64,000 nt of DNA from assembly GCF_004698125.1 (NCBI RefSeq), contig NZ_SRHV01000006.1, forward strand, positions 186,001-250,000. The letters run 5' to 3'. The stretch's first letter is position 1, and every line of letters starts with the position of its first letter. This document shows, in pieces, positions 10,702 through 38,141 of this stretch. The position numbers and the translations under genes were made by a program. The stretch comes from Halosimplex halophilum. Its GTDB lineage: Archaea; Halobacteriota; Halobacteria; Halobacteriales; Haloarculaceae. A model generated the notes under the pieces. The model had not been told where the DNA came from, made no database searches, and saw only the letters and a program-made list of their open reading frames with translations.

Positions 10702-12485
10702 AGCGCACCACCCGGTTTGAGGTTCTTCCGGACGAGCAGTCCGTTCACCGGCCACGCGATGACGAATCCGACGAGGGTGGCGAACGTCATCACGCCGAAC
10801 CAGAGGATGTTGTGGTCGCCCGGCATCATCGGCAGCTCGAGCATCATCAACACCCACATGCCGCCCATCATGCCGATGGAGACGCTTGTCATGCTAACCG
10901 CGACGATCTTCGCGCCTTTCTTCGCTGCCGCACTCGTGTCGAGGTCCTGTGAATCCGTGAGCATGGGTATGTGGAAGACGAGCCACGAGACGAGGAATGC
11001 GACGACGTACACGACGGCGATGAGGACGGTCATCGCGTTCCCGAGCCAGAACAGCGGGCCGTCGAGGACGAACATCGGGATCCCGAAGTAGGTGAGCAGG
11101 AACGCCGTCGCGATCATCGTACTCGCCGCGAATCCGACTCCCATCGCGGTCGCCGTCGCCGCTCTGAGCCAGTACGGCCGTAGGACGCGTGGCCCTTGTT
11201 CCGTGTCGATGATCTGCCGTCCCCGGTAAGAGAGCCAATACAGTGCGAGCCCGAACGGACCCAGTATCAGGGTCAACAGCGGCCAGACCATCGTCGTCCA
11301 GTCGTTCATCTCCGGGAGCCGCTGGCGGGCGTGTGCGAAGACGAACGACGCACCGAGGAGACTGAACGCAGCCCAGATGGCCGCAAAGACCTCGAGTGGG
11401 CTCAGTCCGGCGCCCTGGTGGCGATACTGGGTGATCTCGACCGCATAGTCCAGACGGCCCTGCGAAACCCAAGACACGTCGTCGGTCGTCCCCATCGCAA
11501 AGAGGTGGTTGAACGGTCCTTCTGCCGGCGTCATGAACCACGCTGGCTGCGTCTGCCAGGCGTAGTTCTCCGTGATCGCTGGGAGGCTGCCGTCCTCGTG
11601 GACGAGCAGGAGCGGCCCTGCTTTCCCCCACTGGAGGTTCGTCGTCGCGACTGCATCCTGGGGCTGGCCCGGATTGACGAGCATGAAGTTGTAGTACCCG
11701 ACCTTGTCGCGCTCGTGAATCCCCCAGCCGAAGTCGCGCGACTCGTCACGATACTCGGCGATCTCGACCGCGTGGACTTGCGGCGTATCTCCCGACACGC
11801 GCGTCCACTCGATGTTGAGGTCCGACAGTGCACCGTCGCCCACGAGATCGGGCGGGGCGAGGACGTACGCGTGGGAAGCGTTGAGTTCAGCGATCGCTTG
11901 CTGCGAGGCATCCGGAATGCCGTCCTCGTTCGCATAGAGAATTGGATCGCCCGAGTATGCACTCCACGCGGCGGCCGGAAGCGCCCATTGTGGTTCCTCC
12001 GAACTCACGATGATAACGTTGTTCGGACTCATCTCGTCGGAGCCGTTCTGGCGGGTTGCGATGGACGCTGCCGTCTCGACGGGATCCCCGCCGGAGATAT
12101 TCACGGTCGAAACGTTGCCAGGGGCCGTCGTATTCGAGCTGTTCGGGCGGCTGGCGTTTCCGAACAGTAACACTGCATCCTCACGCTCCCGGAGCGACGA
12201 CGCTGCGAGTGCCGCCTGCCAGTCGTTCTCGGGTACCCGAACGACAGTCGAGTAGTTCAGGCCGGACTGCGGCGGTCGTGCTGCTCGCGCCGTGAGTTCG
12301 CTCTGGCGGGCTGGATCGTCGGCCGGGATGCGGCTGACGTCTTTCGTCTGCATCGTTGAGTACGACTGACTTGGGACGTCACCGTAGTCGAATATCGTGA
12401 GCCCGAGGACGTAGACTGGTTGCATCGCGACTATGATGGCCACGATGGCGGCGACACCGATCGCGAGACCCTTCCAGACGTCCAT
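10698..12485 (-). CDS. Membrane protein with cell-wall-binding-like ectodomain and DUF4396-like helices
   Basis: The 595-residue protein has one N-terminal helix (residues 5-30), an exported domain of about 330 residues with the same pattern as the downstream Tat protein (DAVLLFGN, ILYANEDGIPDASQQAI, VLAPPDLVG), and six C-terminal hydrophobic helices. The last two carry a Met-rich stretch, GMMGGMWVLMMLELPMMPGD, and match the DUF4396 pattern as I remember it. The Met cluster suggests soft-metal contact. It is first in the three-gene operon. I infer a surface complex, possibly for copper or another metal, because a copper-storage-like protein and CopB remnant lie upstream. This inference is untested. 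Confidence 0.8.
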   Translation of the reverse strand: MDVWKGLAIGVAAIVAIIVAMQPVYVLGLTIFDYGDVPSQSYSTMQTKDVSRIPADDPARQSELTARAARPPQSGLNYSTVVRVPENDWQAALAASSLREREDAVLLFGNASRPNSSNTTAPGNVSTVNISGGDPVETAASIATRQNGSDEMSPNNVIIVSSEEPQWALPAAAWSAYSGDPILYANEDGIPDASQQAIAELNASHAYVLAPPDLVGDGALSDLNIEWTRVSGDTPQVHAVEIAEYRDESRDFGWGIHERDKVGYYNFMLVNPGQPQDAVATTNLQWGKAGPLLLVHEDGSLPAITENYAWQTQPAWFMTPAEGPFNHLFAMGTTDDVSWVSQGRLDYAVEITQYRHQGAGLSPLEVFAAIWAAFSLLGASFVFAHARQRLPEMNDWTTMVWPLLTLILGPFGLALYWLSYRGRQIIDTEQGPRVLRPYWLRAATATAMGVGFAASTMIATAFLLTYFGIPMFVLDGPLFWLGNAMTVLIAVVYVVAFLVSWLVFHIPMLTDSQDLDTSAAAKKGAKIVAVSMTSVSIGMMGGMWVLMMLELPMMPGDHNILWFGVMTFATLVGFVIAWPVNGLLVRKNLKPGGAL

Positions 12486-12528
12486 ACTGCTATCGCCTCC
12501 ATGACTGTCGCCCAGTACAATCGAACAC

Positions 12529-12543
12529 CGGGGGACTCCCCCG
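12529..12543 (-). terminator. Possible hairpin terminator
   Basis: CGGGGG-ACT-CCCCCG forms a 6-bp stem just beyond the stop of the SPW-repeat gene and before the promoter of the next operon. There is no clear T run, and archaeal termination does not need hairpins, so the assignment is weak. Confidence 0.3.
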
Positions 12544-12579
12544 CTGAACTTTCCTATTACACGGTTTCATTGTTGAGTG

Positions 12580-12957
12580 TCAGGTTTCGTCCAGTGCGGT
12601 GTGGCTACTCGGACGATTGAGGAACTGTGCGGCGTACACGTTATATCCGGCAAACGCCGACACTAACACGCCGACTGCGACGTCGTTCCATCGGAGGAGC
12701 CCGGTGACGCCGACGAGAAACGGGGCAAAAAACTGCCAGACTCCAAGTGCAACGAGGACACTTGCAATCCACTGACTCGGTTTGCCCTGTCTCCGTTCGT
12801 ACGAGTGGTTGTGACCGGCGAGGAGCGAAAGTGCACCACCGACGATCACGTCGTTCCAGGAATCGATCGACGGGGCTCCGAGTACGAACGGAGCTGCCAT
12901 GAGCCAGATACCGAGCCCTCCGATTGCGAGCGTGATCCAACGGGTTGGAGAGTTCAT
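12580..12957 (-). CDS. SPW-repeat membrane protein
   Basis: A 125-residue protein with four hydrophobic helices arranged as two SPW units. Each unit has a helix ending in APFVLG or APFLVG followed by a short polar turn with a tryptophan (DSWNDVIVGG and LRWNDVAVGV). This is the SPW repeat family, a haloarchaeal and bacterial membrane family with no settled function. It sits 27 bases after the copper-storage-like gene on the same strand and is likely co-transcribed with it. Confidence 0.88.
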   Translation of the reverse strand: MNSPTRWITLAIGGLGIWLMAAPFVLGAPSIDSWNDVIVGGALSLLAGHNHSYERRQGKPSQWIASVLVALGVWQFFAPFLVGVTGLLRWNDVAVGVLVSAFAGYNVYAAQFLNRPSSHTALDET

Positions 12958-12984
12958 TTGATTAAGCGTACTCCGAGATGGCGC

Positions 12985-13332
12985 TCAAGACGCCATTTCG
13001 CGGCAGGTCTCGGCACAATCACGAAGTACCTCGGCACAGACCTGGCAGTGGTCGGCATCGTGGCGCTCGCACTCCTCGGCGCACTCCTCACACGCGCCGG
13101 CACAGGCCTGGGCGAGTTGGGGACTGTAGTTCGAGTTGCGGGCCATGAACCGGGCGTGCATCGCCGTCAAGTCGGCGACATCCCGGCAGAGCCGCGCGCA
13201 CTGCTCCATCTCCGGGTCGCCCAGACACTCGTCGGCACACCACTCGCAAGCTTGAACGGCTGCGAAGCAGTTGTCGATGCATTCGGCCATCAGATCGTTC
13301 TCGCTCACGTGGTCGATCTGGGTCAGAGCCAT
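12985..13332 (-). CDS. Four-helix-bundle copper-storage-like protein (Csp/DUF326)
   Basis: The 115-residue protein carries some fifteen cysteines in helical spacing: CIDNC, CEWCADEC, CARLC, CAGACEECAEEC, CQVC, CAETC, plus several His and Met residues. This is the Csp (DUF326) four-helix bundle, which in bacteria packs many Cu(I) ions along its core. No signal peptide is visible, so it should be cytosolic. I used the Met at 13332 (MALTQIDHV) as the start; a Met seven codons further upstream is possible. Copper ATPase remnants are nearby at 14604-15115. Confidence 0.88.
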   Translation of the reverse strand: MALTQIDHVSENDLMAECIDNCFAAVQACEWCADECLGDPEMEQCARLCRDVADLTAMHARFMARNSNYSPQLAQACAGACEECAEECERHDADHCQVCAEVLRDCAETCREMAS

Positions 13333-13624
13333 CGATTCTGACCACGAGAGCATCGGTCTTTGTTATCCACTCGTCAGTTAGAACTGGAAACTAGTGAGAT
13401 GGCTCAATCACGGAGCTGTCTTGTAACTCTAATCCGTGAGACAGGGTATAACGTTGGATTTCGGCAGAATGGAACTACCGATATCACCGGGGTCGGAAGC
13501 AATGTAGTCAGTCTAGCGTGTAATCTCATCTTAGATACGACATTCCCAAGATCACTGGGTGCTCACCCGGGCTACGGGCTTACTTGGTAACCGGACTAAA
13601 GGATGTCAAGGCCCTATCTTGGGT
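13333..13624. other. Intergenic region before a divergent gene pair
   Basis: About 290 bases with no protein-like frame. It must hold the promoters for the Csp-like gene (leftward) and the small membrane gene (rightward). I saw no clear repeats or hairpins beyond short AT-rich patches. Confidence 0.5.
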
Positions 13625-14603: not shown

Positions 14604-15115
14604 CTAGTCCGCTGGCTGTGCCTGTCCAGACGGTGAGACACCCGGTAGATCCGTTACCGAGAGATCGACCCGTCGGAGGAGTTGCGCGTTGATCGCCACG
14701 ATGACTGTACTGAGAGACATCAGCAGAGCACCGACGGCCGGCGAGAGAAGGATCCCGATGGGCGCGAGCACTCCGGCAGCCAGCGGGATGGCGAAGACGT
14801 TGTAGCCCGCTGCCCAGACGATGTTCTCCTGTATCTTCCGGTAGCTCGCCTTGCTCAATTTCACGAGTCGCACGACGTCCATCGGATTGTTCTGGACGAG
14901 GATGACATCCGCCGACTGAACGGCGACGTCCGTGCCACTTCCGATTGCGATCCCGACGTCAGCACGGGTGAGGGCGGGCGCGTCATTCACGCCGTCACCG
15001 ACCATCCCGACGAGTTTGCCCTGGTCCTGTAGCTCCTGAACTTTCTTATCCTTGTCTTCGGGGAGTACCTCGGCAAACACCGTATCGATCCCCAGTTCAT
15101 CTGCGACAGCGTTTG
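14604..15115 (-). pseudogene. 3' third of a CopB-type copper ATPase
   Basis: The translation matches the C-terminal part of the intact CopB ATPase at 35922-38141 almost residue for residue, from [15 protein letters not shown] through the hinge motif [13 protein letters not shown] to the last two helices and [11 protein letters not shown]. The actuator, the CPH membrane core and the phosphorylation motif are missing. Homology begins near 15115 on the minus strand, where the sequence switches abruptly to an unrelated fragment. Substitutions are mostly conservative, so it looks like a paralog truncated not very long ago. A Met inside the frame could allow translation of a 158-residue product but that would be inactive. 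Confidence 0.85.
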
Positions 15116-15418
15116 CGGATCGAGTTTCATCTCGCCGGCGTCGCGCTCGGCGTAGGTGATGCCATCGTGGACGGTAGTCTCGTCTATGCTACCACGAACG
15201 GGGTGAACGAACGATATGGGACCACTGACTGGACGAATCGAGATAGGATGCGTTACCGACTACTGAATCCATGAATAGCCGAGCTTCGTCGGAGATACGT
15301 GCGTGCAGGACGGTGAGTTGCATGACACCGGGCCAGAAGAACCGATCTCGTACGGGAGAAGACCGTGTTTCAATCTCGACCAGCGTTCACCACCGCGAAA
15401 CCTCGATTTGGATGGCAG
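15116..15418 (-). other. Degenerate sequence, possible hydrolase N-terminal scrap
   Basis: No complete gene. On the minus strand directly upstream of the CopB fragment, a short frame reads [18 protein letters not shown], which resembles the first strands of alpha/beta-hydrolase-fold esterases. It is not preceded by a usable start and is fused out of context to the ATPase remnant. The remaining 200 or so bases show no recognisable coding pattern. Confidence 0.3.
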
Positions 15419-16855
15419 CTATTGTTGGGTGACTAGTCGCTCCTGAGGGTCGATATTGACGTTCCGGCTGAACACGTTGTCCGGGTCGTATTCGGCCTTG
15501 ATCTCGGAGAGACGGTCGTAGTTCTCGCCGTACACCTGCTCGGTCCAGTCCTCCCAGTCGCGTTCCTCGACGCCGGTGAAGCCCGCGTAGGCGCCCTCAC
15601 CACCTGCTTCGCGGATCATTCGTTCGGTTTCGGCGGCCCAGTCGAGGGTCGGTTCGTTCTGGAACGCTTCCCAGTTGCCCTCGATGGTAATCATGTACTG
15701 CTTGTCGTCCCAGGGGAACGCGTAGTCGCCGCCGTGACCGATGTTCCCGCCGAGCGGCCAGATACCGACGGCGGACATCGGCGTCGGCGCCACCTCCGTC
15801 TGCTCGACGACGGTCTCGTGGATGTCCTCGGAGAGGTCGTCGACGAACACCGACCGATGGGTGTACTTGCGGCCCCACGGGTACATCTGCGTCCCGAGGT
15901 CGTGGAGCATCTCGTAGGGCATCACGTCGCTCATGTCGATAAGTGGCTCGCCGATCTCGCGAAGCGGTTCGATGACTTCCGCACCTGACTCAGGGTCGCC
16001 CGCGTAGCAGCCGAGCATCGCGACGGCGTCCGTGCCCGCGAGTTCGTCGGGCATCGGCGGGAGGTTCGGGACGTGCCCGGAGAGGAGGATGGTGGTCAGT
16101 TCCTCGGGCGCGTCCGCCATCACCTGGTGGTGGGTCTCCATGACCTCCTCGGAGAGATCGAAGGGGTAGAAGATACCCAGGCCCTGCACCATCGGGCCGA
16201 CCTCGTACAGGTCGAACTCGAAGCTCGTGACGACGCCGAAGTTGCCGCCGCCACCGCGTAGCGCCCAGAACAGGTCCTCGTTCTGGTCGGCTGAAGCCTT
16301 CAGGAGTTCGCCCTCGGCAGTGACGAGTTCGACGCTCCGGAGGGCGTCGATCCCGAGACCGTTCTTGCGCCGCATCCACCCGATGCCACCCCCGAGCGTC
16401 GAGCCGGGGATACCGACGTCGCCTGCGCTGCCGGTGGGGAACGCGAGGCCGTGCTGTTGGGTCTCGGCGAGTACGTCCTCGGCGCGGGTGCCCGGTTCGA
16501 CTCGGGCGATCTTCGCCTCGGGGTCGACGTGGACGCCGTCCATGTCCGCGAGGTCGACGACGAGACCGTTCTCGACGATAGCGCTACCCGCCTGATGGTG
16601 CGCACCGCCCCGGACGGCGATCTCGAGGTCGTGCTCGCGGGCGAACTGGATGGCCGTCGCCACGTCGGTCGCGCCCTTCACACGAGCGATGACGGCTGGA
16701 TACTGGTTGATCAGGCCGTTCCACACGTTGCGGGCATCCTCGTAGCCCTCGCTGTCGGGGAGGACGAGGTCGCCACGCAGGCCTTCATCGAGCCCCGCGA
16801 TAGCCTCATCACCGAGTTCCGCGACAGTACCGAGGGGATGCTTGTGGTCGGACAT
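15419..16855 (-). CDS. FAD-binding (BBE-type) oxidoreductase
   Basis: The 478-residue protein has the PCMH/VAO flavin fold. AVRGGAHHQAG near residue 80 provides the His that commonly links covalently to FAD 8-alpha. GSTLGGGIGWMRRKNG and LRGGGGNFGVVTSFEF line the flavin site. The C-terminal berberine-bridge segment (YDRLSEIKAEYDPDNVFSRN) is intact. Family members oxidise sugars, alcohols or secondary metabolites with oxygen or another acceptor. The substrate is not inferable. It stands alone, with a small unknown gene upstream on the same strand 69 bases away. Confidence 0.9.
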   Translation of the reverse strand: MSDHKHPLGTVAELGDEAIAGLDEGLRGDLVLPDSEGYEDARNVWNGLINQYPAVIARVKGATDVATAIQFAREHDLEIAVRGGAHHQAGSAIVENGLVVDLADMDGVHVDPEAKIARVEPGTRAEDVLAETQQHGLAFPTGSAGDVGIPGSTLGGGIGWMRRKNGLGIDALRSVELVTAEGELLKASADQNEDLFWALRGGGGNFGVVTSFEFDLYEVGPMVQGLGIFYPFDLSEEVMETHHQVMADAPEELTTILLSGHVPNLPPMPDELAGTDAVAMLGCYAGDPESGAEVIEPLREIGEPLIDMSDVMPYEMLHDLGTQMYPWGRKYTHRSVFVDDLSEDIHETVVEQTEVAPTPMSAVGIWPLGGNIGHGGDYAFPWDDKQYMITIEGNWEAFQNEPTLDWAAETERMIREAGGEGAYAGFTGVEERDWEDWTEQVYGENYDRLSEIKAEYDPDNVFSRNVNIDPQERLVTQQ

Positions 16856-16924
16856 TCGGGCGAGAAAAGACGCACTACCACCAGATACTCACCGGGTGAG
16901 ACGCTGGCCCACCACCTGAAACAG

Positions 16925-17332
16925 TCAGTCGAACGTCCCGAGTCGTGCCTGTGCGTTCTGGACCGCACTGGCGACCGTTCCCGAGAAACGCAGCCAGCCA
17001 CTGCTCGATGCGTCGACGCTCTTCTCGCCACGATAAGCGGAGATCCGGACCTTGTACGGTGGGAAGGCCAGCCGCCGCTTCTGGATGTCGAACTCGTCTT
17101 CCTTGAGGGCGATCGCCGTCTTCCGGTGGTCGACGTTCAGGATCTGAAATCCGACATCGAACTCCTCGGCGTTCCGCTCGGCGTCCGCGATCGCCTTGTC
17201 AGTCGCCCGGCCCCGCGTCAGGTACGACGCCCCGAGCCCTTCGACGCGACGGCCGTCGTCGGTCTGTCCAATCGCTCGAACGATGAAGGGGCGGCTGTTG
17301 TGCAGGTAGTCGGTGTTTGTGATCTCCGTCAT
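16925..17332 (-). CDS. Unrecognised basic alpha/beta protein divergent from the NTPase-TPR gene
   Basis: A 135-residue product, IQKRRLAFPPYKVRIS in its centre, with alternating strands and helices and a basic middle. I recognise no domain. The start at MTEITN leaves about 96 bases of promoter space before the divergent large gene. A second Met at 17425 (MKSAEAAELL) would extend it by 31 residues and leave only 3 bases between the divergent starts, so I prefer the shorter form. The divergent arrangement suggests shared control with the large regulator-NTPase protein. Confidence 0.65.
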   Translation of the reverse strand: MTEITNTDYLHNSRPFIVRAIGQTDDGRRVEGLGASYLTRGRATDKAIADAERNAEEFDVGFQILNVDHRKTAIALKEDEFDIQKRRLAFPPYKVRISAYRGEKSVDASSSGWLRFSGTVASAVQNAQARLGTFD

Positions 17333-17428
17333 GGGAAGTTCCCGGTGGGACTGTTCGCCGGAGACATCGTATTTGCAGTCCCCGACACACTGTCTCAGGA
17401 GTTCGGCCGCTTCCGCCGATTTCATAGT

Positions 17429-20400
17429 ATGGGAATTACGAAACAGGAGGCAATGGCGGATGGTGCAGCTGATCTCGACGACGTTCTCGACCGCGTCGCC
17501 CAGCGGATCGAGTTTCTCGAGTTGCTTTCGGACGGCGAGTGGATGACCAACGAGATCGTCGACCAGCTCCCGCATTCGCGGTCGACGGTCTCGCGAGCGC
17601 TTCGGCAGTTGCAGGAGACCGACCTGATAGAGAAACGGGCGGACGGCTATACGGTCACGCCACACGGGGCGCTCCTGGCCGAGCAGTACCGGGACTACAG
17701 ATCCGAGGCCCGGTCGATATTCGGGGCCCGACAGCTACTCGCGTCGCTCCCGGACGACGAACAGGTCGCCCGCGAATTCGTTGCGAACGCCACAACGATC
17801 GGGTTGACGGAGTCTCCGCCGTTTCGACCACTCGAGGTCATCTCGGAGCAGATCGCTACCGGTCGACGCGTCCACGTCTATCTGCCAACACTCTCCGGCC
17901 CGCATCTCCTCCGTGTCTTCCGCCGGCTCGTCGTCGAGGAAGCGGGGTCACTGAAACTGGTCGTCTCGACCGACCTCGGTGAATCGCTATTGTCGTACTA
18001 TCCCGGGATCCTCGGCGAGCTTGCCGACGAGGGCGACTTCGAGATACAGTTCGTGAACGACGGCCCGTCGTACGGTGCTGTCGTCTCCGAATCTCCCGAA
18101 CAGCGTGAAGCCACCGTCACCGTGTACTCCGAGGACGGTGCGATGCAAGGCGGGCTGGCAACGGAAGACGATACGGCCGTCGAGTGGGCACTCGACCGGG
18201 TCCGTGAGCTCGAAGCCGCTGCTACCGATCGAACCGAAGACTTCGAAGCGATCTCAACGGGGGCGGAGTCACGGCTGTCGCCGGTGGTCGGCGAGTCCTC
18301 TCACACGACTGTAGAATCCGGCGCCGTCCCGCTCGACCTTCGCGAGGAAGGCTTCGAGGTGCTCGCCGAGACCGACTTCGAATCGGAGGGGCTACCCCCG
18401 GACACGGCACTACGCGTCGGCCTCTCCTTCGCAGAGATAGACGACGGGCTGGCCATCGATCGGACGGTCGAATCGGACGGTGAAGCGGAGCGGTCCCTGA
18501 CGAGCGAACTCGTCGACCGATTGCTCGACGGAACGGACACCGTCCTCCTCGGGCCGCCGGGGTCGGGGAAGAGCACCGTCTGCAAGATGGTCGCCCGCGA
18601 GTGGTACGCTCGTGACCGTGGCCCGGTGGTGTATCGGGAAACCGACCACGGGCGTTCATTCGAGTCGGTCGCTACGCTCGAAGCCTTTCTCCAGCGTTCC
18701 GAGGGTCACGCGCTGGTGGTCGTCGAGGACGCTCTCCGGCTGGAATCCCGTCGGATCCTCTCCGTGGTCGAGACGTTCAGAGACGACGAGGACGTGACGT
18801 TCCTGCTCGACTCCCGACAGCGCGAGTGGGACGATCCGACGGAACCGCTCAAAGACGCCCGACTGGACTCCGTTCGCCGGCAGGTACTCTCACAGGTGTC
18901 GATGCCGGAACTCACCGAGAGCGAGGCACAGAGTCTCGTCGAGACGGCTACCCGGGCGACGGACGGCGAGATGGACCTGGACGGCGGAACGGTCCTCCAG
19001 CGCATTCACGACACCAACCGACCGGACGACGAGGTGACGCCGGGGGAGATGTTTCTGGCGCAGCAGCTCCTGCTAACCAGACTCGATTCGATGGCGTCGT
19101 ACGAGACGTCGACGGCGACGACGTTCGAAGAAGATGTCCGCTACTGGTACGATCGGTTCGTCGACAGCGAGGCGGACTCGCTGGGCGATCTCGCGCTGCT
19201 CGTCAACGTCTTCAACGCGGCAGGGCTCCCTATCGCTCCGGAGTTGCTCTCTAGTTTGTCGAGCCGGTACGAAACATCGACCGTCTCACAGGCGCTCGAA
19301 CGGCTGGAGGGGACTCTTCTGTTCGAATCGACGAACCGGGAGTTCGGGCGCGAGTACCGGACGAACAGCGAACTCTGGTCCGTCCGCTTTCTCGAACAGT
19401 TCGTCCGCTCGTCTCCCGACCCGGCCGCTCGGTTCGAGCGATGCATCCAGCCCGTGCTCTCGCTCGTCGACGACCCGGAGCACCGAGACCGTATCTTGGA
19501 GGAACTCGAACACACCACCCCGTACCTCAGCCAGATCGAACACCATCCCACGACCTGGAGCGAGGAGTTCGTCACTCGCCTCTTCCAGGTCGGACTAACC
19601 TACTACCGACTGGCGCCGATGTTCGGTACCAGCTCGGAGACGAGCCTGGAGTTGCCGTCCGAGTGCCCCGACGTAGTGGCCGCTCGCATCACGGGCTGGC
19701 GGGGGCGGATGTATCGGGTCCACGGGATGCACGACGAGGCGCTCGCGGAGTACGAGTCGCTCGAGCGGCGGCTTGAGTCGACGACTGAACTGCCGTCAAC
19801 CGAAGTCACACGACTGCGGGTCGACTGTTTGACGGGGAAAGTATCGATCCTGAGTGACCGGGGGCAGTTGGACGAAGCTGCGGAACTCGCCGAAGAGGCC
19901 ATCCGCGTCGCAAAGCGAGGAGACATCAACGACCGGGAGCCGTCAGCTCGACTGGATTACGCCCACATCGCGTACAAGCGGGCCGACTTCGACGAGGCAC
20001 TGGAGCGCTACGAGGGCTGTATCGAGGCGGCACGACGCACTGGGGACGAAAAAACACGCGCCCGCGCCCTGACTGCATCGGGGGCGATCTTCTCGGAACG
20101 AGGGGAGTACGACCGGGCGATCGAGCGGTACGGTCAGGCCCTGGAACTCTCCCGCGAGATCAACGACCGCCGAAACGAGGCCAACACACTGGGAAACATG
20201 GGCGTGCTCGCCCGGGACAGGAACGAACTCGAACGGGCGCTCGACCGGTTCAGGGAGAAGCTGCGGCTGGCCAGGGAGTTGGGCGAGCGACACACCGAAG
20301 CCAACGCGCTGTGGAACATCGCGAGCGTCGAGTCCGAGCGCGGCAACCTCGATACGGCGGTCGACCACGCGACGAAAGCGCTCGAACTGAGTCAAGCTGT

Positions 20401-20956
20401 AGAGGTTCGCCGTGTCGTCGCCGAATCACTCCACTTGCTCGGCGAGATCGAGCGCCAGCGTGGGAACCTGACGAAGAGCCGCCAGTACGCCGAGGACAGC
20501 CTGGACGCGTTCGAAGAGAGCGGGTACAGGTACGGCGTAGCGGCCGCCTATCGAAACCTCGCCCGTATCGAACTTGCGGCGGAGCAGTACCACTCCGCAC
20601 GGGAGTACCTCGAAGAAGCACGGACGCTCGCCGAAGAGATGGAGACGCAGGCCAGCCTCGCTGCCTGTGACGAGATCGCCTCGCGAATCGCGTATCGAGC
20701 GGGACGACTGTCCGAGGCGGAAGAACGGGCACAGGCCGGGCTGGATACCTATCGTTCGACCGATCGGACGAAAGGCGCCGCCGAGACGCTTCACGTCCTG
20801 GCGCTCGTCGCGTTCGACCGGGGTAACACCGAGCGGGGGCGCTCGTACCTCGACGAAGCGAGAGACCTTGCTCACGAGGCCGGAGTCCAGCGAACGATCG
20901 ACCGAGTCGAACAGACCAGTCCCCACGACCGTACTGCGAAAACAGAGCAGGTGTAG
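17429..20956 (+). CDS. wHTH - FilR1-like - P-loop NTPase - TPR protein (STAND-like)
   Basis: The 1,175-residue protein has four parts. Residues 30-90 form a winged helix (WMTNEIVDQLPHSRSTVSRA). Residues 95-270 resemble the FilR1-type ligand domain of haloarchaeal regulators (RVHVYLPTLSGP, LKLVVSTDLGESLL, VTVYSEDGAMQGG). Residues 360-650 are an NTPase with Walker A GPPGSGKST near 375 and Walker B ALVVVEDALRLE near 430, then a sensor-like FLLDSRQREW. From about 753 to 1165 there are roughly ten TPR-like helical pairs (ALERYEGCIEAARRTGD, AIERYGQALELSREIND). This order, effector/NTPase/repeat sensor, is that of STAND ATPases, but with a DNA-binding and a ligand domain as effector. The start was set at the ATG just before the wHTH; the open frame upstream is the antisense of the neighbouring genes. 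Confidence 0.88.
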   Translation: MGITKQEAMADGAADLDDVLDRVAQRIEFLELLSDGEWMTNEIVDQLPHSRSTVSRALRQLQETDLIEKRADGYTVTPHGALLAEQYRDYRSEARSIFGARQLLASLPDDEQVAREFVANATTIGLTESPPFRPLEVISEQIATGRRVHVYLPTLSGPHLLRVFRRLVVEEAGSLKLVVSTDLGESLLSYYPGILGELADEGDFEIQFVNDGPSYGAVVSESPEQREATVTVYSEDGAMQGGLATEDDTAVEWALDRVRELEAAATDRTEDFEAISTGAESRLSPVVGESSHTTVESGAVPLDLREEGFEVLAETDFESEGLPPDTALRVGLSFAEIDDGLAIDRTVESDGEAERSLTSELVDRLLDGTDTVLLGPPGSGKSTVCKMVAREWYARDRGPVVYRETDHGRSFESVATLEAFLQRSEGHALVVVEDALRLESRRILSVVETFRDDEDVTFLLDSRQREWDDPTEPLKDARLDSVRRQVLSQVSMPELTESEAQSLVETATRATDGEMDLDGGTVLQRIHDTNRPDDEVTPGEMFLAQQLLLTRLDSMASYETSTATTFEEDVRYWYDRFVDSEADSLGDLALLVNVFNAAGLPIAPELLSSLSSRYETSTVSQALERLEGTLLFESTNREFGREYRTNSELWSVRFLEQFVRSSPDPAARFERCIQPVLSLVDDPEHRDRILEELEHTTPYLSQIEHHPTTWSEEFVTRLFQVGLTYYRLAPMFGTSSETSLELPSECPDVVAARITGWRGRMYRVHGMHDEALAEYESLERRLESTTELPSTEVTRLRVDCLTGKVSILSDRGQLDEAAELAEEAIRVAKRGDINDREPSARLDYAHIAYKRADFDEALERYEGCIEAARRTGDEKTRARALTASGAIFSERGEYDRAIERYGQALELSREINDRRNEANTLGNMGVLARDRNELERALDRFREKLRLARELGERHTEANALWNIASVESERGNLDTAVDHATKALELSQAVEVRRVVAESLHLLGEIERQRGNLTKSRQYAEDSLDAFEESGYRYGVAAAYRNLARIELAAEQYHSAREYLEEARTLAEEMETQASLAACDEIASRIAYRAGRLSEAEERAQAGLDTYRSTDRTKGAAETLHVLALVAFDRGNTERGRSYLDEARDLAHEAGVQRTIDRVEQTSPHDRTAKTEQV

Positions 20957-25051: not shown

Positions 25052-26080
25052 ATGATCCGCGATGCTCGCGTGTTGCGCGCCGGGTTCGTCCCGCGGGAGA
25101 TCGAGCATCGCGACGCGGAAGTCAACCACCTTTCCAGCGTCCTCGACCCGATCACCGAGGGCGAACCCGCCGACACCGCCCTCGTGACCGGCCCGAGCGG
25201 CGCGGGCAAGACCTGCCTCGCGAAGTTCGTCACCGAACGGCTGCGTGAAGAGGTGCTGGACATCGAGACGGTCTACGTCAACTGCTGGCGCAACTACACG
25301 CGCTTCCGGACGCTCTACCAGATCCTGGATACGCTCGGCAAGACTATCGACATCCACCGCCAGTCGACGCCCCACGACGAACTTGTCGAACGCCTCCAGC
25401 AGTACGACGGGCCCCGCACCGTCGTCATCCTCGACGAGGCCGACCAGCTGGAGAACCCCGACGTGCTCTACGACCTGCACAGCCTCCCGCAGTTCGGGCT
25501 GATCTGCATCGCGAATAGCGAGGAGGACCTCATCGCCCGCGTCGACGACCGGCTGGTCAGTCGCCTCCGGTCGAGCGAGCACGTCCGGATGGACAAGTAC
25601 CACGTCGACCAGCTGCAGGACATCCTCGCCGCCCGCGTCCGGCGCGGGCTCGACCCCGACGCGATCACTGACGCCCAGCTCCGCCGGATCGCCGACGCCG
25701 CGGCCGGCGACGCCCGCCTCGCCATCGGCATCCTCCGGACCGCCGCGAGTGCGGCCGACCGCCGCGGCACCGACCGCATCACCGACGAGCTGCTGCTCGA
25801 CGCCGCGAGCGACGCCCGCGACTCGATCCGACAGACCAACCTCGACTCGTTGACGCCCCACCAGCGGGTCGTCTACGACATCGTTCGCGAGCACGGCCCG
25901 CTGGGGCCCGGCGAGATCCACGACCACTACACGGACGAAGTCGAGGACCCGCGCACGAAGCGGACCGTCCGGAACTACCTCTCGAAGATGACTCAGTACA
26001 ATCTCCTCACCGCAGAAGGGACGAGCCGCGACCGCGAATACGCGCTCGTCGATCCGGCGACAACATCGCCGACGCAGTGA
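25052..26080 (+). CDS. orc1/cdc6: Orc1/Cdc6 family replication initiator
   Basis: The 342-residue AAA+ protein has Walker A GPSGAGKT near residue 48, Walker B VVILDEADQL near 125, and sensor motif ICIANSEEDL; a C-terminal winged helix (LTPHQRVVYDIVREHGP...RTVRNYLSKMTQYNLL) follows. Orc1/Cdc6 proteins bind origin boxes and load the MCM helicase. Haloarchaeal genomes carry many paralogs, often one per replicon or integrated element. Here it lies immediately downstream of repeated TTTCCGGAAA boxes. It has a typical length for the short paralogs. The following genes are unrelated metabolic genes on the other strand. Confidence 0.92.
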   Translation: MIRDARVLRAGFVPREIEHRDAEVNHLSSVLDPITEGEPADTALVTGPSGAGKTCLAKFVTERLREEVLDIETVYVNCWRNYTRFRTLYQILDTLGKTIDIHRQSTPHDELVERLQQYDGPRTVVILDEADQLENPDVLYDLHSLPQFGLICIANSEEDLIARVDDRLVSRLRSSEHVRMDKYHVDQLQDILAARVRRGLDPDAITDAQLRRIADAAAGDARLAIGILRTAASAADRRGTDRITDELLLDAASDARDSIRQTNLDSLTPHQRVVYDIVREHGPLGPGEIHDHYTDEVEDPRTKRTVRNYLSKMTQYNLLTAEGTSRDREYALVDPATTSPTQ

Positions 26081-29823: not shown

Positions 29824-30762
29824 ATGCCAGAGACCACCGGAAACGACGCGCCACGGCGCCGGTCAAAAACCCCGACGCGACCGGCCCAGCACAATCAGTC
29901 GACCGTCGCCGGCGCGCCCGACCAGCGTGTCGACGGCCTGCTCCCCGCGCTCGATCCCGGCCTGACGCTCCTTGATATCGAGGCCGACCGCAACGTCCCG
30001 GTCGTCCACGCGCTGGTCTGTGACCACCTGCTCGACGCAGACGGTCCCGCCTTCTGGGTCGACGCGCAGGGCTACGCGACGACGGCGACGTTAACCCAGA
30101 TCGCGCCGAGTCGATGCCTCCTCGACCGCATCCACGTCGCCCGCGGCTTCACCGCCTACCAGCATTTCAGCGCGCTCGCGGACCTGCCCGCCGCAGTCAA
30201 CGCCCACGTCAAAGCGACGGCGACTACCGATGCGTTCCGCCAAGACGACGCGACCACCGACGGCACGGACGCCCAGCCGACGCCCGGGCTCGTTGTCGCC
30301 CCCGCCGTCGATGCGCTCTACCGGGCCGACGACACGCTGTGTGACGCCCAGACACGCCGACTACTCGCCCGAAGCCTCGCCCGCCTCCGCCAGTACGCCG
30401 ACGCCTACGACGTGCCCGTCCTCTGCACTCGAACGAAGCAGGACGGCCTGACCGACCCGGTCGAGGCGGCCGCGACCCACCGCTACACGTGCGAGGCGAC
30501 GCGGATGGGCCCACGAATTACCGGCGAGGACTTCGAACCCCAGTGGTACCCCGTCGCCGGTGGCGACGCCTATCAGACGACGCTGGCCTACTGGGCGGAC
30601 CTGCTGGCCGCCCGCGCCGAGGGGGCCGGGTGCCAGCCCGCCACCCCGACGGGCCCGTCGCTGGACGCCGACACGGACGACGGGGTTACGACTGCACCAA
30701 CCCGCCAACCGGGCGCCCCGCTGCTGGACACGTGGGCCGGCCAGCCCGGCCGGGGGTACTGA
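29824..30762 (+). CDS. RecA-like protein without a P-loop, polymerase-linked
   Basis: The 312-residue protein has a core with RecA/RadA-like strand spacing (AFWVDAQGYATTATLTQI, then LVVAPAVDALYRADDTL, then DVPVLCTRTKQDGL) but no GxxxxGKT motif, so it should not hydrolyse ATP in the usual way. I recognise it as the companion that precedes plasmid-type family-B polymerases in haloarchaea; the exact family name escapes me. It starts a three-gene operon with a 97-residue protein and PolB (spacings 2 and 5 bases). A DNA-binding or recombination-accessory role is inferred. Confidence 0.7.
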   Translation: MPETTGNDAPRRRSKTPTRPAQHNQSTVAGAPDQRVDGLLPALDPGLTLLDIEADRNVPVVHALVCDHLLDADGPAFWVDAQGYATTATLTQIAPSRCLLDRIHVARGFTAYQHFSALADLPAAVNAHVKATATTDAFRQDDATTDGTDAQPTPGLVVAPAVDALYRADDTLCDAQTRRLLARSLARLRQYADAYDVPVLCTRTKQDGLTDPVEAAATHRYTCEATRMGPRITGEDFEPQWYPVAGGDAYQTTLAYWADLLAARAEGAGCQPATPTGPSLDADTDDGVTTAPTRQPGAPLLDTWAGQPGRGY

Positions 30763-31063: not shown

Positions 31064-32722
31064 ATGCCGTTCACGATCGACTTCCTCGACGACGGGCGCG
31101 TCCTCGAATGGACGGTCACCGACGACGGCGCCGAACCCACGGTCGTCGACCACTACACGCCCCGCTTTTTCGTCGGGCCTCGCGATCCCGAGGCCGATAT
31201 CGACCTCGCACGCCTCCGCCAGTGCTACGAGCGCCACCCGGCCGTGGCTGGCGTCGAAGTCGTCGAGCGACGCCCCGGCTTCCGGCGCGACCCCGAACGC
31301 CTGCTCGCCGTCGACGCCACCCACATCGACCGCGTGGCGTCGCTCGCCCGGCAAGCCCGCCGGCTCGACGCCTACCCCGTGGGCGAACTGGCCTGCTACA
31401 ACGTCGATTTCACCCGCGAGTTCCGCTACTGTCTCGAACGCGGGGTCGACCCGACGCCCACCGGGGACCTGACGACGCTCTCGCTGTCGGTTCCGTTCAC
31501 GGAGACGGCCGGCGACACGTACGAGACGCTGACCGTCGCCGGCGACACCGTCACCGGCAGCCCGGCGACGATCCTCGACGCTGTGGCGACCGCCGTCGAA
31601 GCACGAGACCCCGATGTACTCGTCTGCTCAACCGCCGATATCGTGCCGACGCTCTACGGCATGGCTGCCCGGGCCGACATCGAGGAGTTCACGCTGAGCC
31701 GCTGGCCAGATGTGGACTCCCAGCAACTCGCCGGGCAGTCGACCTACACGAGTTACGGCCGGGTGGGCCACTCGCCGGCGCGGTACAACGTCCCCGGGCG
31801 AGCGATCATCGACGAGTCGGCCACGTTCCTGTACGACGAGACCAACCTCGCCGGCGTCGTCGACCTGGTCGAGCGCTCGCACAAGCCCGTCCAGGAACTC
31901 GCCTGGGCGTCGATCGGCACCGTCCTCACCGCGATCCAGGTACGCGAGGCGACCGCCCGCGGTGTGCTCGTCCCGTGGAACTCCTGGCGCCACGAGCTGT
32001 TCAAGCCGATGGACACGCTGCACGACGCCGACCGCGGCGGGTTCATCTTCGCCCCCGATACGGGGGTCCACGAGGATGTCCACGAACTGGACTTCTCCAG
32101 TCTCTATCCGAACATCATCTGCACGCGGAATGTCTCGCCGGACGTGATCCGGTGTGACTGCCATCGTGACCGCGCGGACGTGCCCGGCCTCGACTACGCG
32201 ATCTGTGACGAGCGGGGGTATCTCGTCGACGTCCTCGAACCGATCATCGAGGACCGCGACGCGATCAAGGCGGCCATCCGCGAGGAGCGTGCAGCCGACG
32301 ACCCCGACGAGGACCGATTGGCCGCCCTCGAAGGTCGCTCGGACGCGCTGAAGTGGATCTTGGTCGCCTGTTTCGGCTACCAGGGCTTCGCGAACGCCAA
32401 GTTCGGCCGGATCGAGTGCCACGAGGCGATCAACGCCTTCGCCCGGGAGATCCTGCTGGACGCCAAACAGCGACTGGAGGCCGGAGGCTGCGAGGTCGTC
32501 CACGGCATCGTCGATTCGATCTGGGTGACGCCGGCACCCGATGTCCCACTCGGCGACCAGACCGACCTCGACACGCTTGCGGCCGACATCACCATCGAGT
32601 GCGCCCAGTGTGGAAAGCCGATCACCGGGGACGGGATCTCGGTGACGGTCGAGGAGCGACGATACTATCCCTGCTGTTCGTCGTGCGAGTCGATGTTCAA
32701 AGAAGAGTACGAGACATTATAG
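31064..32722 (+). CDS. Family-B DNA polymerase truncated after motif C, with TRASH-like zinc tail
   Basis: Residues 1-510 are a haloarchaeal plasmid-type family-B polymerase: motif A ELDFSSLYPNII near 340, motif B ILVACFGYQGFANAKFG near 430, and motif C HGIVDSIWV near 480. Relatives run on for about 200 further residues forming the thumb. Here the homology ends at TLAADITIE and the last 42 residues read CAQCGKPITGDGISV then YYPCCSSCESMFKEEY, the TRASH/YHS-like treble-clef pattern of metal-sensing proteins. So the gene looks like a fusion made by recombination. Without a thumb, processive synthesis is unlikely, though the reading frame is clean. Confidence 0.85.
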   Translation: MPFTIDFLDDGRVLEWTVTDDGAEPTVVDHYTPRFFVGPRDPEADIDLARLRQCYERHPAVAGVEVVERRPGFRRDPERLLAVDATHIDRVASLARQARRLDAYPVGELACYNVDFTREFRYCLERGVDPTPTGDLTTLSLSVPFTETAGDTYETLTVAGDTVTGSPATILDAVATAVEARDPDVLVCSTADIVPTLYGMAARADIEEFTLSRWPDVDSQQLAGQSTYTSYGRVGHSPARYNVPGRAIIDESATFLYDETNLAGVVDLVERSHKPVQELAWASIGTVLTAIQVREATARGVLVPWNSWRHELFKPMDTLHDADRGGFIFAPDTGVHEDVHELDFSSLYPNIICTRNVSPDVIRCDCHRDRADVPGLDYAICDERGYLVDVLEPIIEDRDAIKAAIREERAADDPDEDRLAALEGRSDALKWILVACFGYQGFANAKFGRIECHEAINAFAREILLDAKQRLEAGGCEVVHGIVDSIWVTPAPDVPLGDQTDLDTLAADITIECAQCGKPITGDGISVTVEERRYYPCCSSCESMFKEEYETL

Positions 32723-32758: not shown

Positions 32759-33070
32759 TCACTCGATTTCGGTGACATCTGTCGTTTCCATGGCATCGTC
32801 ATGTTGCTCGCGAGTCACCCGGAGGCGGATTCCCTCGTCTCTGTCCGAGGCTTCGACGACGTTCACGACTTCTGGGGTGGCTTCGGGATCGAGTATCGTC
32901 ACACGGTCGTCCTCAGTGACGATTCCGTATCCACTCTCGATACAGTGACCCATGAGTGCACAGTCGCGGGTGTGGACCCTCGCGTTCTCCAATAGCTCGT
33001 CTCGCGCGTTCTTTCGGATGCAGCCAACGTCCATGACGTAGCCCTCGACCGTCTCTGTGTCGGTACTCAT
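32759..33070 (-). CDS. Small Cys/His protein (MDxxC...HxxxCALMGHC type)
   Basis: The 103-residue protein has a conserved-looking core: GYVMDVGCIRK, then VHTRDCALMGHCIESGYGIV, then DRVTILDPEATPEVVNVV. The pattern of one Cys, then His-Cys-His-Cys, then a Gly-x-Gly-hydrophobic strand is seen in small bacterial secreted or periplasmic proteins of unknown role that open with a D-x-x-C motif. No signal peptide is visible here. Metal binding is plausible. It lies alone between the truncated polymerase and the TnpB element. Confidence 0.65.
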   Translation of the reverse strand: MSTDTETVEGYVMDVGCIRKNARDELLENARVHTRDCALMGHCIESGYGIVTEDDRVTILDPEATPEVVNVVEASDRDEGIRLRVTREQHDDAMETTDVTEIE

Positions 33071-33161
33071 AGCAAGCGTAGTACGAGTCTGACACGGAAG
33101 TGGCTTGGCGCAATCCTGTTGCGTTTAGTTTCCACAAACTATCTGCTACCAGCGAGAGAAT

Positions 33162-33179
33162 CCCGGCCTGCAGGCCGGG
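33162..33179. repeat. 18-base perfect palindrome at TnpB left end
   Basis: CCCGGCCTG meets CAGGCCGGG with no spacer, flanked by GAAT on the left and CGTGAATC on the right. Subterminal palindromes of this kind mark IS200/IS605 element ends. Confidence 0.7.
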
Positions 33180-33296
33180 CGTGAATCGCGTACGCTCTGA
33201 TACAACGGACCCGGGTGACAGCCAGGTCGGATATTCTCCGTTCACTTTCACTCTGGTAGGCGATAACTTATCAGCCTCACCTCCAATAGACTCTGT

Positions 33297-34550
33297 ATGG
33301 CGAATCGGGTCACTCGCACCTACGTTGCGTCCATTCGCAACCACCGGCAGGTGCGTAACGATCTCGATTTGCTCGGGTTCGCAGCCTCGAAACTCTGGAA
33401 TATCGCCCGGTGGACGTGTGACCGCATCTGGCACGAAACCGGGACGATACCAGACCACGGTGTTCTCAAAGCGTACCTCAAGAGTCACGAACGCTACGCG
33501 GATTTGAACGCACAATCCAGTCAGGCAATTCTCGAAGAATTGGCTGAGGCGTTCGACTCGTGGTACGCACTCCGTGGAAACGGTGACGAAAACGCGAACC
33601 CGCCCGGCTACCGCAAGCACGGCGACGACCACCCGCGCTCGACAGTCACGTTCAAAGAGGACGGGTTCAAGCACGACTCCGACCACAACCGGATTCGACT
33701 CTCGAAGGGTCGAAACCTGAAAGATGGACGGCGAGACTTCATCCTCTGTGAGTACGCCGCTGACCCGGATGTGACCGTCCAGAACGTCCAGCAGGTCCGG
33801 GCGGTCTGGACCGGCACCGAATGGGAGCTGCACATCGTCTGCAATGTCGAGGTTGACAACCCGGACCCACCCGGTGACCGAGTAGCAGGTATCGACCTCG
33901 GCATCTGCAACTTCGCCGCCGTTGCAGTTGGCGACGACGCGTTACTGTATCCCGGTGGCGCGCTCAAAGAGGATGAGTACTACTTCCAGAAGGAGCGAGC
34001 GAAGTGCGACGACAGTTCCTCCCGACGAGCACACCGACTGGACCGGAAGCGCGACGAGCGCCGGACACACTTCTTTCACGCTGTCTCGAAGGACATCGTA
34101 ACTGAGTGTGCCGCCCGAAACGTCGGGACGATCGCCGTGGGCGACCTGACTGGTATCCGTGAGGGCGCCGATTGGGGCGATCACGGCAACCTTGACCTGC
34201 ATGGATGGGCGTTCGACAGGTTCACGGAGATGTTGGAATACAAAGCCGCTGAACGCGGTATCAGCGTTGAGCGTGTAGATGAGCGTGAGACGTCCAAATC
34301 CTGTGGGTCGTGTGGGACCACCGACGACAGCCAGCGCGTCGAGCGCGGACTGTACGTCTGTGAGGCGTGTGGACTGGTCGCCAACGCCGACGTGAACGGA
34401 GCCGAGAACATCCGGCAGAAGGTACTCCCGACTCTCGCCTGTGACGGGGGAGATAGGGATACCGGCTGGATGGCACAGCCAGCGGTGCGCCTGTTCGACA
34501 AATCCACGGGGCGAGTAGCCCCACAAGAACAGGTGACCCGCGAACCATAA
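33297..34550 (+). CDS. tnpB: TnpB (IS605 OrfB family RNA-guided nuclease), RuvC-II Glu replaced
   Basis: The 417-residue protein has the OrfB layout: N-terminal helical wedge, RuvC-I Asp in VAGIDLGICNF near residue 201, the RuvC-II region TIAVGDLTGIREG near 280, a four-cysteine zinc ribbon CGSCG...CEACG near 340-365, and RuvC-III Asp in ANADVNGAENI near 365. In typical TnpB the RuvC-II site is an E-D/N-L triad; here it is GDL, so the glutamate is missing at the standard place. Some lineages carry a rearranged Glu, so activity is not excluded. Upstream SWIM and polymerase genes are unrelated to it. Confidence 0.92.
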   Translation: MANRVTRTYVASIRNHRQVRNDLDLLGFAASKLWNIARWTCDRIWHETGTIPDHGVLKAYLKSHERYADLNAQSSQAILEELAEAFDSWYALRGNGDENANPPGYRKHGDDHPRSTVTFKEDGFKHDSDHNRIRLSKGRNLKDGRRDFILCEYAADPDVTVQNVQQVRAVWTGTEWELHIVCNVEVDNPDPPGDRVAGIDLGICNFAAVAVGDDALLYPGGALKEDEYYFQKERAKCDDSSSRRAHRLDRKRDERRTHFFHAVSKDIVTECAARNVGTIAVGDLTGIREGADWGDHGNLDLHGWAFDRFTEMLEYKAAERGISVERVDERETSKSCGSCGTTDDSQRVERGLYVCEACGLVANADVNGAENIRQKVLPTLACDGGDRDTGWMAQPAVRLFDKSTGRVAPQEQVTREP

Positions 34551-34855
34551 TATCCCAACGCTTGGGAAACCGCGCCGTTCACGTGCGGAGGATGTCATCC
34601 GGAGTCCTCAAGAGAATCACCTACTCCAGACTCGTCCAGCCCTCCGGTGCGTTTTCCCAGCCATCGAAGCACGTAGTAGGGGAGGATCAACTGTAACTGG
34701 AGCGCAATGTGGGTGACTTTCCGTCTCGAGAGCGAAATAGCGGTGATGGTTGGGCTGTTCGAGTATTTAAACGTCCTCGACACAATCCGTCGGGTCGGCG
34801 TTTCAGACGCGCCGTGGTATCGATATTACGAGTGCGATTCTAGTGTATTCGGGTG

Positions 34856-35857
34856 ATGAATCTCGCTTACCTCTTTCTCGGCACGTCGTTTCTCGTTCTG
34901 GTCGTCATCGATCTACTGTGGACGACGCTCTGGGTCGAAGGTGGGGCCGGTCCGCTTACGACTCGACTGATGAGCTGGACGTGGCGGTTGCTTCGAAGGG
35001 TAGCAGGTCACCGACCCCGAGTGCTTTCGCTCGCCGGACCAATAGTTCTCGTACTCAGTCTCACTGTCTGGATCTGTCTTCTGTGGTTCGGCTGGACGTT
35101 CCTCTTCGCCGGCGGAGAGAGCACGCTGATGGATACTCGTGATCCGGGCCCCATCGCTTGGACGGAGCGGTTCTACTTCGTGGGCTATTCGGTCTTCACG
35201 ATGGGGAACGGCGATTTCACCCCGCGGGACGGCCTCTGGCAGATCGTCACCGGCCTCACGACCGCCAGCGGGATGCTCTTCGTGACGCTGAGCGTGACGT
35301 ACGTGCTCAACGTCCTCGGTGCGGTCACGCAGAAACGGTCGCTCGCCAGTAGCATCCACGGCCTTGGCGGGGGGAGTACCGAAATTCTTGAGCGAAGCTG
35401 GGACGGTGACTCGTTCCAGGGACTGGAAGTACCGCTCAACTCGATTTCCGGCCAGCTCGATACCCTCACGTCGAACCACAAGGCGTACCCGATCCTTCAC
35501 TACTTCTACACGCCGCAGACAGAACAGGCACCGGTGACGAATATTGCCGTGCTCGATGAGGGGCTGACTCTTCTAGAATTCGGGGTCTCGGAACAGGATC
35601 GTCCAAGTGAAATCGCCATCGGCCAGGCCCGATCGAGTGTTCAGGACTACCTGAACACGCTCGACACAGCATTTGTCGAACCGGCCCAACGGACGCCTCC
35701 GGCTCCAGCGCTCGGCGTCCTTCGAGACAGCGGGATCCCGACGGTATCGGACCAGCAGTTCGACGAGTCGCTCGATTCGATCGACGATCGCCGGCGGACA
35801 CTACTGGGACTCATCGAAGCCGACGAACGGCGCTGGCCCCTCTCAGATCGTCAGTGA
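34856..35857 (+). CDS. Two-helix potassium-channel-like membrane protein
   Basis: The 333-residue protein has three N-terminal helices (about 5-20, 60-85, and 130-155) with a pore-loop between the last two: [19 protein letters not shown]. The FTMGNGDF sequence matches the ion-channel selectivity filter pattern (TVGYGD) with Asn in the Tyr position. The remaining 170 residues are soluble, with no RCK/TrkA domain recognised. It likely conducts monovalent cations. An ATG following a GTG was chosen as start; a TATTTAAA box lies about 90 bases upstream. CopB follows 64 bases later. Confidence 0.82.
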
Positions 35858-35921
35858 GGACGCCAGAACAAACCACAAATCCATCACCCCTGGTGCCGTA
35901 CTTCTGCCCACTGAGAGACCA

Positions 35922-38141
35922 ATGGACGACCACTCCCACCACGATACGGAGAACGGAGAGGAAAGCGGAGATTCAGCCGACTCGCGGACGGAACAGTCGA
36001 TGATCGAGGAGGAGGCCGACGACACCGCCGAGGTTGAATCGGCGATCGAGGAGAAACACGACCACCACACGGGACACGAAGCAGGTGGTCACGACCACGG
36101 CGAGGGTCACGGTGACCACGGTGGGATGCACGCCGGCCACGAACAGATGTTCCGACGGCGCTTTTTTGTCTCGACGCTACTCTCGATCCCCGTCCTCCTC
36201 TACAGCGAGTTCCTCCAGACCCAACTCGGCTTCACAGTGCCGGTATTTCCGGGCAGCGAGTGGATCAATCCCGTCTTCGCGGTCGTCGTCTTTGCCTACG
36301 GTGGGGTCCCGTTCCTCCGGATGGCAGTGCCGGAACTGAAAGACCGGGCGCCGGGGATGATGACGCTCATCTCGATGGCGATCACCGTCGCGTTCGTCTA
36401 CAGCCTCGCAAGCGTCGTCTTCCCCACCCAGTCGGCGTTCTTCTGGGAACTGGTGACCCTGATCGACATCATGTTGCTAGGCCACTGGATCGAGATGCGG
36501 TCCGTCCGGCGTGCGTCGAGCGCCCTCGACGAACTGGCGAAGCTCATGCCGGACACCGCCGAGCGGCTCACCGAGTCCGGAGGCACCGAGGAAGTACCAG
36601 TCAGCGACCTCTCGGAGGGCGACCTCGTCTTAGTGCGGCCCGGCGCGAGCGTCCCCGCTGACGGCGTCGTCGAAGAAGGCGATTCAGACGTGAACGAGGC
36701 CATGATAACCGGGGAGTCGAAACCAGTCTCGAAGGAACCCGGCGACGAGGTCATCGGCGGGACGGTCAACGGCGACGGGAGTCTCCGGGTGCGGATCGAC
36801 GCCACGGGTGACGAGACGACGCTGGCGGGGATCATGCGCCTCGTCGAGGAGGCACAGGAGAGCGAATCGAAGACGCAGGCCCTCGCAGACCGAGCCGCCG
36901 GGTGGCTGTTCTACGTCGCCCTCGGCGCCGCCGTCGTCACGGGAATCGCCTGGACGATCGCGACCACGTTCGACGCGGCTGTCATCGAACGAGTCGTCAC
37001 CGTCCTCGTCATCGCGTGCCCGCACGCACTCGGCCTCGCGATCCCGCTCGTGGTCGCAATCAACACGTCGCTCGCCGCCCGCAATGGGATGCTCATTCGC
37101 GACCGGATCGCGATGGAGGACGCGCGAAACCTCGACGCGATCATCTTCGACAAGACGGGAACGCTCACGCAAGGCGAACACGGTGTTGTCGGGACGGCCA
37201 CTGTCGACGGCGTGGACGAAGACGAAGCGCTCGAACTCGCCGCCGCAGTCGAAGGCGACTCCGAGCACATGATCGCCCGTGCCATCAGGGAGGCCGCCGC
37301 TGAGCGAGGAATCGATGCCCCTGACGCTGTCGACTTCGAGGCGATGAAGGGCCGAGGGGTTCGCGCCATCGTCGATGGTCGGGAGGTCTACGTCGGCGGC
37401 CCGAACCTCCTCGACCATCTCGACAGCGACGTTCCCGACGAGTTGCGGACCTTTGCCGACGAGGCCGGCGAAAATGCCCAGACTGTGGTCTATCTAGTCA
37501 GGGATGGAGAACTGCTCGCGGCGTTCGCGATGGCCGACGTTATCCGCGAAGAGAGTTACGCGGTCGTCGACGCGCTCCACGACTTAGACATCGAGGTGGC
37601 CATGCTGACGGGTGACTCTCGGGACGTGGCCGAGGCCGTCGCCGACGAATTGGGGATCGACACAGTCTTCGCCGAGGTACTGCCCGACGACAAGGACAAG
37701 AAAGTACAGGAGCTTCAGGACCAGGGCAAACTCGTCGGGATGGTCGGCGACGGCGTCAACGACGCGCCCGCGTTGACGCGAGCCGATGTGGGCATCGCCA
37801 TCGGCAGCGGGACGGATGTTGCCGTGCAGTCGGCCGACGTCATCCTCGTCCAGAACAACCCGATGGATGTCGTCCGCCTCGTGAAGCTGAGCAACGCAAG
37901 CTACCGGAAGATGCAGGAGAACATCGTCTGGGCCGCCGGCTATAACGTCATCGCCATTCCGCTGGCCGCGGGCGTCCTCGCGCCGATCGGCGTCCTCCTG
38001 TCGCCCGCCATCGGCGCTCTCCTGATGTCATTGAGCACGGTCATCGTCGCGATCAACGCCCAGCTCCTCCGCCGTGTCGACCTCTCGGTCCCGAGTCTGT
38101 CGGGCATCTCGGCGGGCGAGCAGGCTCGTCCGGCGAACTAG
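35922..38141 (+). CDS. copB: CopB-type copper-translocating P-type ATPase
   Basis: The 739-residue P1B ATPase has a His/Asp/Glu-rich N-terminus (for example [20 protein letters not shown]) in place of CxxC domains. It then has the actuator TGES motif, the membrane motif [14 protein letters not shown] (CPH, the P1B-3 signature), phosphorylation site FDKTGTLT, the SEHMIA region (HP-like), and hinge [11 protein letters not shown] plus a His-rich N-terminus is the CopB subgroup, exporting Cu(I)/Cu(II) or other metals from the cytosol. It heads the metal-resistance region 35.9-42.2 kb. The truncated paralog at 14604-15115 shares its last 160 residues. Confidence 0.94.

Follow-up and report, generated by a model that had tools for sequence, protein, structure and literature searches.

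Makarova et al. 2014 (PMC4104785) described the operon that encodes iRadA, PPB2 and the B-family polymerase PolB2, which has been modelled as a mutasome (PMC11791011). In this polymerase the first aspartate of the motif C DxD is usually missing, which alone is no sign of inactivation, and a D(K/R) motif is reported to contact the arm of PPB2 through a modelled loop (PMC11791011). Haloarchaea also possess regulators of the Lrp/AsnC-TRASH type, and such a regulator activates the copper-export ATPase gene (yvgX) in Halobacterium (PMC3600143).

The locus analysed here joins a gene of the one kind to a gene of the other. It lies in a window of 64,000 nucleotides, i.e. the whole stretch of DNA under analysis, on the 268-kb contig C4 of the Halosimplex halophilum genome (hereafter G000; seven contigs, 4.47 Mb, rated 99.87% complete). 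As judged from its sequence, it is very probably the scar of an illegitimate recombination that inactivated a PolB2 gene as well as the local copper regulator, with a product that most likely is a non-functional remnant and a gene that would now be drifting.

Two parental genes and their joint

The reading frame in question (31064-32722, plus strand) runs from an ATG over 552 codons to a TAG stop. It is homologous to PolB2 as far as about residue 510 (32593 at the DNA level), and a TRASH domain then follows in frame. The frame and the genes upstream of it are laid out as follows:

29824-30762, plus strand: iRadA (inactivated RadA/RecA-like), 312 aa, open; 83-85% identity to the genes at the iRadA position in two Halosimplex genomes, weak RadB match; operon position as in PMC4104785 and PMC11791011
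30765-31058, plus strand: PPB2 (arCOG07300-like), 97 aa, its translation starting with the conserved MGRT arm (motif as in PMC11791011)
31064-32593, plus strand: 5' part of polB2, codons 1-510, encoding the N-terminal/decayed exonuclease region together with the palm/fingers, where motifs A, B and C lie; positions 1-510 of 717 in NF004418
32581-32593, plus strand: recombination joint, where both parental genes align with short patchy identity
32594-32719, plus strand: TRASH domain, residues 511-552, derived from the C-terminal end of a copper regulator of the Lrp/AsnC-TRASH type; PF24273, 89% aa identity to the H. aquaticum regulator
32720-32722, plus strand: TAG stop where H. aquaticum has CAG, seen by alignment and read-through; original TGA at 32741-32743

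Residues 1-510 correspond to positions 1-510 of the type B polymerase profile NF004418 (717 positions), where the match ends, and the following 42 residues (511-552) match PF24273, the C-terminal TRASH domain of HVO_1752, above the cut-off (E = 3e-14). The preliminary description had likewise seen the polymerase homology stop and a 42-residue tail of metal-sensor type follow without a frameshift. It had also placed motifs A, B and C in order, as they are: DFSSLYP begins at residue 343, KWILVACFGY of the motif B region lies at residue 430, and motif C, HGIVDSIW at residue 480, is without the first aspartate of the DxD (IVD). The D(K/R) motif is kept (DADRGG at 321, with DR at residues 323-324), and amino acid identity of this part to the PolB2 of H. 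carlsbadense is 86%. In residues 1-510, in its IVD motif C and D(K/R) motif and in having iRadA and an MGRT-bearing PPB2 directly upstream, the gene resembles a PolB2/Dpo2 mutasome polymerase (PMC4104785, PMC11791011; NF004418). The earlier assignment to family B holds, and the truncated polymerase is no generic plasmid replicase but the third gene of the iRadA-PPB2-PolB2 operon ('PolB2 mutasome'). A candidate Orc1/Cdc6-like gene, named from its sequence, lies at 25052-26080, and the same arrangement occurs in H. carlsbadense. Also in the window, positions 16451-20956 hold a 1501-codon frame, the C-terminal part of which resembles a P-loop/TPR protein with an HTH and the first ~350 codons of which may be non-coding.

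Over residues 507-552, the fusion matches best (89%) the C-terminal end of an Lrp/AsnC-TRASH protein of 199 aa, the gene of which lies on the minus strand of the H. aquaticum chromosome (L021:10688-11287). All five cysteines of the tail (513, 516, 537, 538 and 541) are intact, with 513, 516, 537 and 541 forming the C-x2-C ... C-x3-C pattern. The tail is the C-terminal TRASH domain of the haloarchaeal regulators (HVO_1752 type; regulator of yvgX in Halobacterium, PMC3600143), in its native place upstream of a 103-aa gene, a K-channel-like gene and CopA. In H. aquaticum these genes follow the Lrp/AsnC-TRASH regulator in just this order, which resumes exactly at the joint with 86% DNA identity, and from 32581 rightward to 42340 the window follows the H. 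aquaticum locus at 78-87% DNA identity, with a TnpB element as the single interruption:

32759-33070, minus strand: 103-aa gene, next after the regulator in intact copper islands; 78-90% aa identity, same place in H. aquaticum, G084 and G083
33144-34620, plus strand: insertion in the copper island, an element with TnpB (ORF 33297-34550); NF040570, synteny gap, not at this place in H. aquaticum
34853-35857, plus strand: candidate K-channel-like gene (likeness read from sequence) of the copper island; 89-90% aa identity to H. aquaticum
35916-38141, plus strand: CopA copper-exporting P-type ATPase; TIGR01511, E = 5e-182, 93% aa identity to H. aquaticum

Metal-resistance genes had been noted nearby, and the tail indeed came from the copper island's own Lrp-TRASH regulator, which means that two genes were broken. 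Elements 84-87% similar to the TnpB element at 33144-34620 occur on several haloarchaeal plasmids. Elsewhere in the window, two short stretches (555-779 and 55105-55556) are 95% identical; they belong to a partial copy close to where the window begins and to a thioredoxin-reductase-like gene at 54612-55652.

At the joint itself, the DNA is similar to polB2 of H. carlsbadense and of another Halosimplex genome as far as 32593, and its similarity to the regulator of H. aquaticum sets in at 32581. Because this parental overlap consists of about a dozen bases of patchy identity, no finer position can be given for the crossover. The G+C content falls across the joint, from 65% in the segment on its left to 56% in the 550 bases to its right, and the reading frame is preserved across it, as would happen by chance in one case out of three. 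A recombination fusion inside the polymerase gene, as suspected at the outset, is thereby resolved at the DNA level in both parents and the joint; to judge from the strong homology of both halves and the precise context of the joint, the fusion of the two parts is not due to chance. The exact junction DNA had no match in viral contigs, and no plasmid record covers the joint. That the joint marks the end of a shared mobile element found no support, the regulator remnant in G114 starting at another codon (~120).

A query of 77 residues spanning the joint was run against 146 family genomes and a 392-genome sample of the order (the two sets overlap), and one of 60 bases against 30 relatives. Both were matched in full in G000 alone. 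The other 145 family and 391 order genomes yielded no match across the joint, save for a weak one (38%) in G258, in a frame of 220 aa that has the size of an ordinary regulator; the polB2 and TRASH parts match separately in other genomes. A breakpoint common to no relative, a test set beforehand, is therefore what was found in these 146 family and 392 order genomes, and the opposite outcome, a zinc tail native to relatives, was not; with no relative carrying the fusion in either set, a tail native to a clade is ruled out.

Lost pieces and changes after the joint

Compared with PolB2/Dpo2 polymerases, of which similarity over the full ~717 positions of the profile is expected, the fusion lacks ~209 C-terminal residues, in line with the ~200 further residues that had been ascribed to its relatives. 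All full-length relatives (~716-725 aa) keep this segment, and it is strongly conserved in 26 relatives. Alignment to the Pyrococcus/Deep Vent polymerase, with the domain boundaries of KOD/Pfu polymerase, indicates that not only the thumb but probably also the last palm strand is missing. The missing polymerase end, which the preliminary description had proposed to look for elsewhere, is absent from the whole G000 genome; the same search was positive in four Halosimplex congeners. A genome search found no further PolB2 copy in G000. Compared with Lrp/AsnC-TRASH regulators, the fusion is without codons 1-146, i.e. the DNA-binding N-terminal winged helix and the Lrp domain. This regulator head is absent from G000, where the only full-length relative is a 40% paralogue on contig C1.

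The tail has also changed since. It ends seven residues early: the H. aquaticum regulator ends in ...YETLQAAAEEA, and reading past the TAG here gives AVAGEA and then the old TGA. Moreover, YYLCC in the five nearest regulators is YYPCC here (Leu-to-Pro). The premature stop is a sign of decay rather than of a new function. Within the polymerase part, eight changes at columns at least 95% conserved are found in G000 only, vs two and five in the two nearest relatives, and changes at fully conserved columns include Trp476Cys (W476C) and Gln100Arg (Q100R). On the G000 branch dN/dS is 0.229 (bootstrap 0.141-0.364) vs 0.147 and 0.126, a borderline excess (bootstrap fraction at or below zero: 0.05), such that the raised ratio is suggestive of decay, not decisive. 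Purifying selection dominates this branch, as expected for a recent event and also for a functional gene.

Loss of PolB2 and regulator genes is ordinary. Other PolB2 genes of the order are often broken by internal stops, frame breaks or truncations, and three of the six closest regulators are broken, namely those here and in G113 and G114. The regulator of G113 (L138 8420-9018) has an in-frame TAG at about codon 51; that of G114 (L139 8234-8467) is without its 5' half and adjoins a TFB-like gene. In another Halosimplex, the iRadA gene (G006:C1:4232938-4233819, within L023) contains a TAA; its PolB2 is full length.

Alternative origins and a possible function

Two real loci misjoined at 32581-32593 during assembly would produce the same picture, and a few bases are indeed common to both parents there. 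This shared stretch of about a dozen patchy bases is, however, far too short to mislead an assembler, and a tail already in decay agrees with a real joint of some age. A misjoin should also have left the 3' end of polB2 and the 5' end of the regulator elsewhere, and the absence of both from a 99.87% complete genome argues against it; we regard an artefact as highly improbable. Among real events, a 19-kb segment with the PolB2 operon might have been inserted in one copper island between a DUF326-like gene (12985-13353) and the regulator, with both edges losing DNA. The genes to the left of the regulator in H. aquaticum and in G084 have homologues at 9466-13353, with orientation and order kept. 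These genes, however, belong to another lineage, as a 595-aa protein shows 68% identity to that of H. aquaticum vs 84% between H. aquaticum and G084, and they are unlike the right flank with its 86-93% identity to H. aquaticum. The unequal divergence of the two flanks weakens a simple insertion into a single island, which we consider rather unlikely, and is the reason for preferring a deletion or replacement joint. A detached CopA 3' fragment at 14604-15116 (minus strand; 91% aa identity to the CopA of 35916-38141 over its residues 572-741) also suggests a second island. The genes at 9466-13353 would be those of this second, more divergent copper island.

A counterpoint to inactivation is that the frame is still open, the five tail cysteines are intact and purifying selection dominates the branch. 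With iRadA and PPB2 open and adjacent, and with the D(K/R) motif of the modelled PPB2-contact loop retained (323-324), the truncated PolB2 might be a functional chimera that still assembles with both partners, and the TRASH tail might make it metal-sensing or give it a regulatory or dominant-negative role. Against this stand the fusion's absence from all relatives searched, the loss of ~209 conserved residues and of the invariant Trp476, and the stop and Leu-to-Pro change in the tail, so that such a function appears very unlikely; AlphaFold models are uninformative, with low-confidence pLDDT values of 49 for the fusion and 51 for the full-length H. carlsbadense protein. More specifically, a translated PolB2-TRASH hybrid that binds iRadA and PPB2 could make the mutasome copper/zinc-responsive or poison it under metal stress, which seems to us very improbable.

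Illegitimate recombination remains our preferred reading: by it, polB2 would have been cut at codon ~507-510 and continued from codon ~147 of the Lrp/AsnC-TRASH regulator heading the CopA island, presumably through a deletion or a replacement that brought a segment with PolB2 up against this island. The 3' end of polB2 (last palm strand and thumb) and the DNA-binding head of the regulator would have been removed, and the frame kept by luck, such that the 552-codon frame survived. We infer that polymerase function and local copper regulation were both lost.

Implications for the PolB2 operon and the copper island

Like chimeric pseudogenes generated by illegitimate recombination, the gene is a single-genome fusion of unrelated genes with the reciprocal halves lost and decay begun. 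In contrast to these, it is still in frame, and an annotator would call it intact. A functional hybrid would be a metal-sensing B-family polymerase, of which no other case is known to us, but the evidence speaks against it, and we most likely deal with a one-off gene wreck rather than a new kind of enzyme. The locus is a clean case of recombination at a copper island's edge that can break both the regulator of the island and a PolB2 operon, and in which the surviving reading frame would be called a polymerase by automatic annotation.
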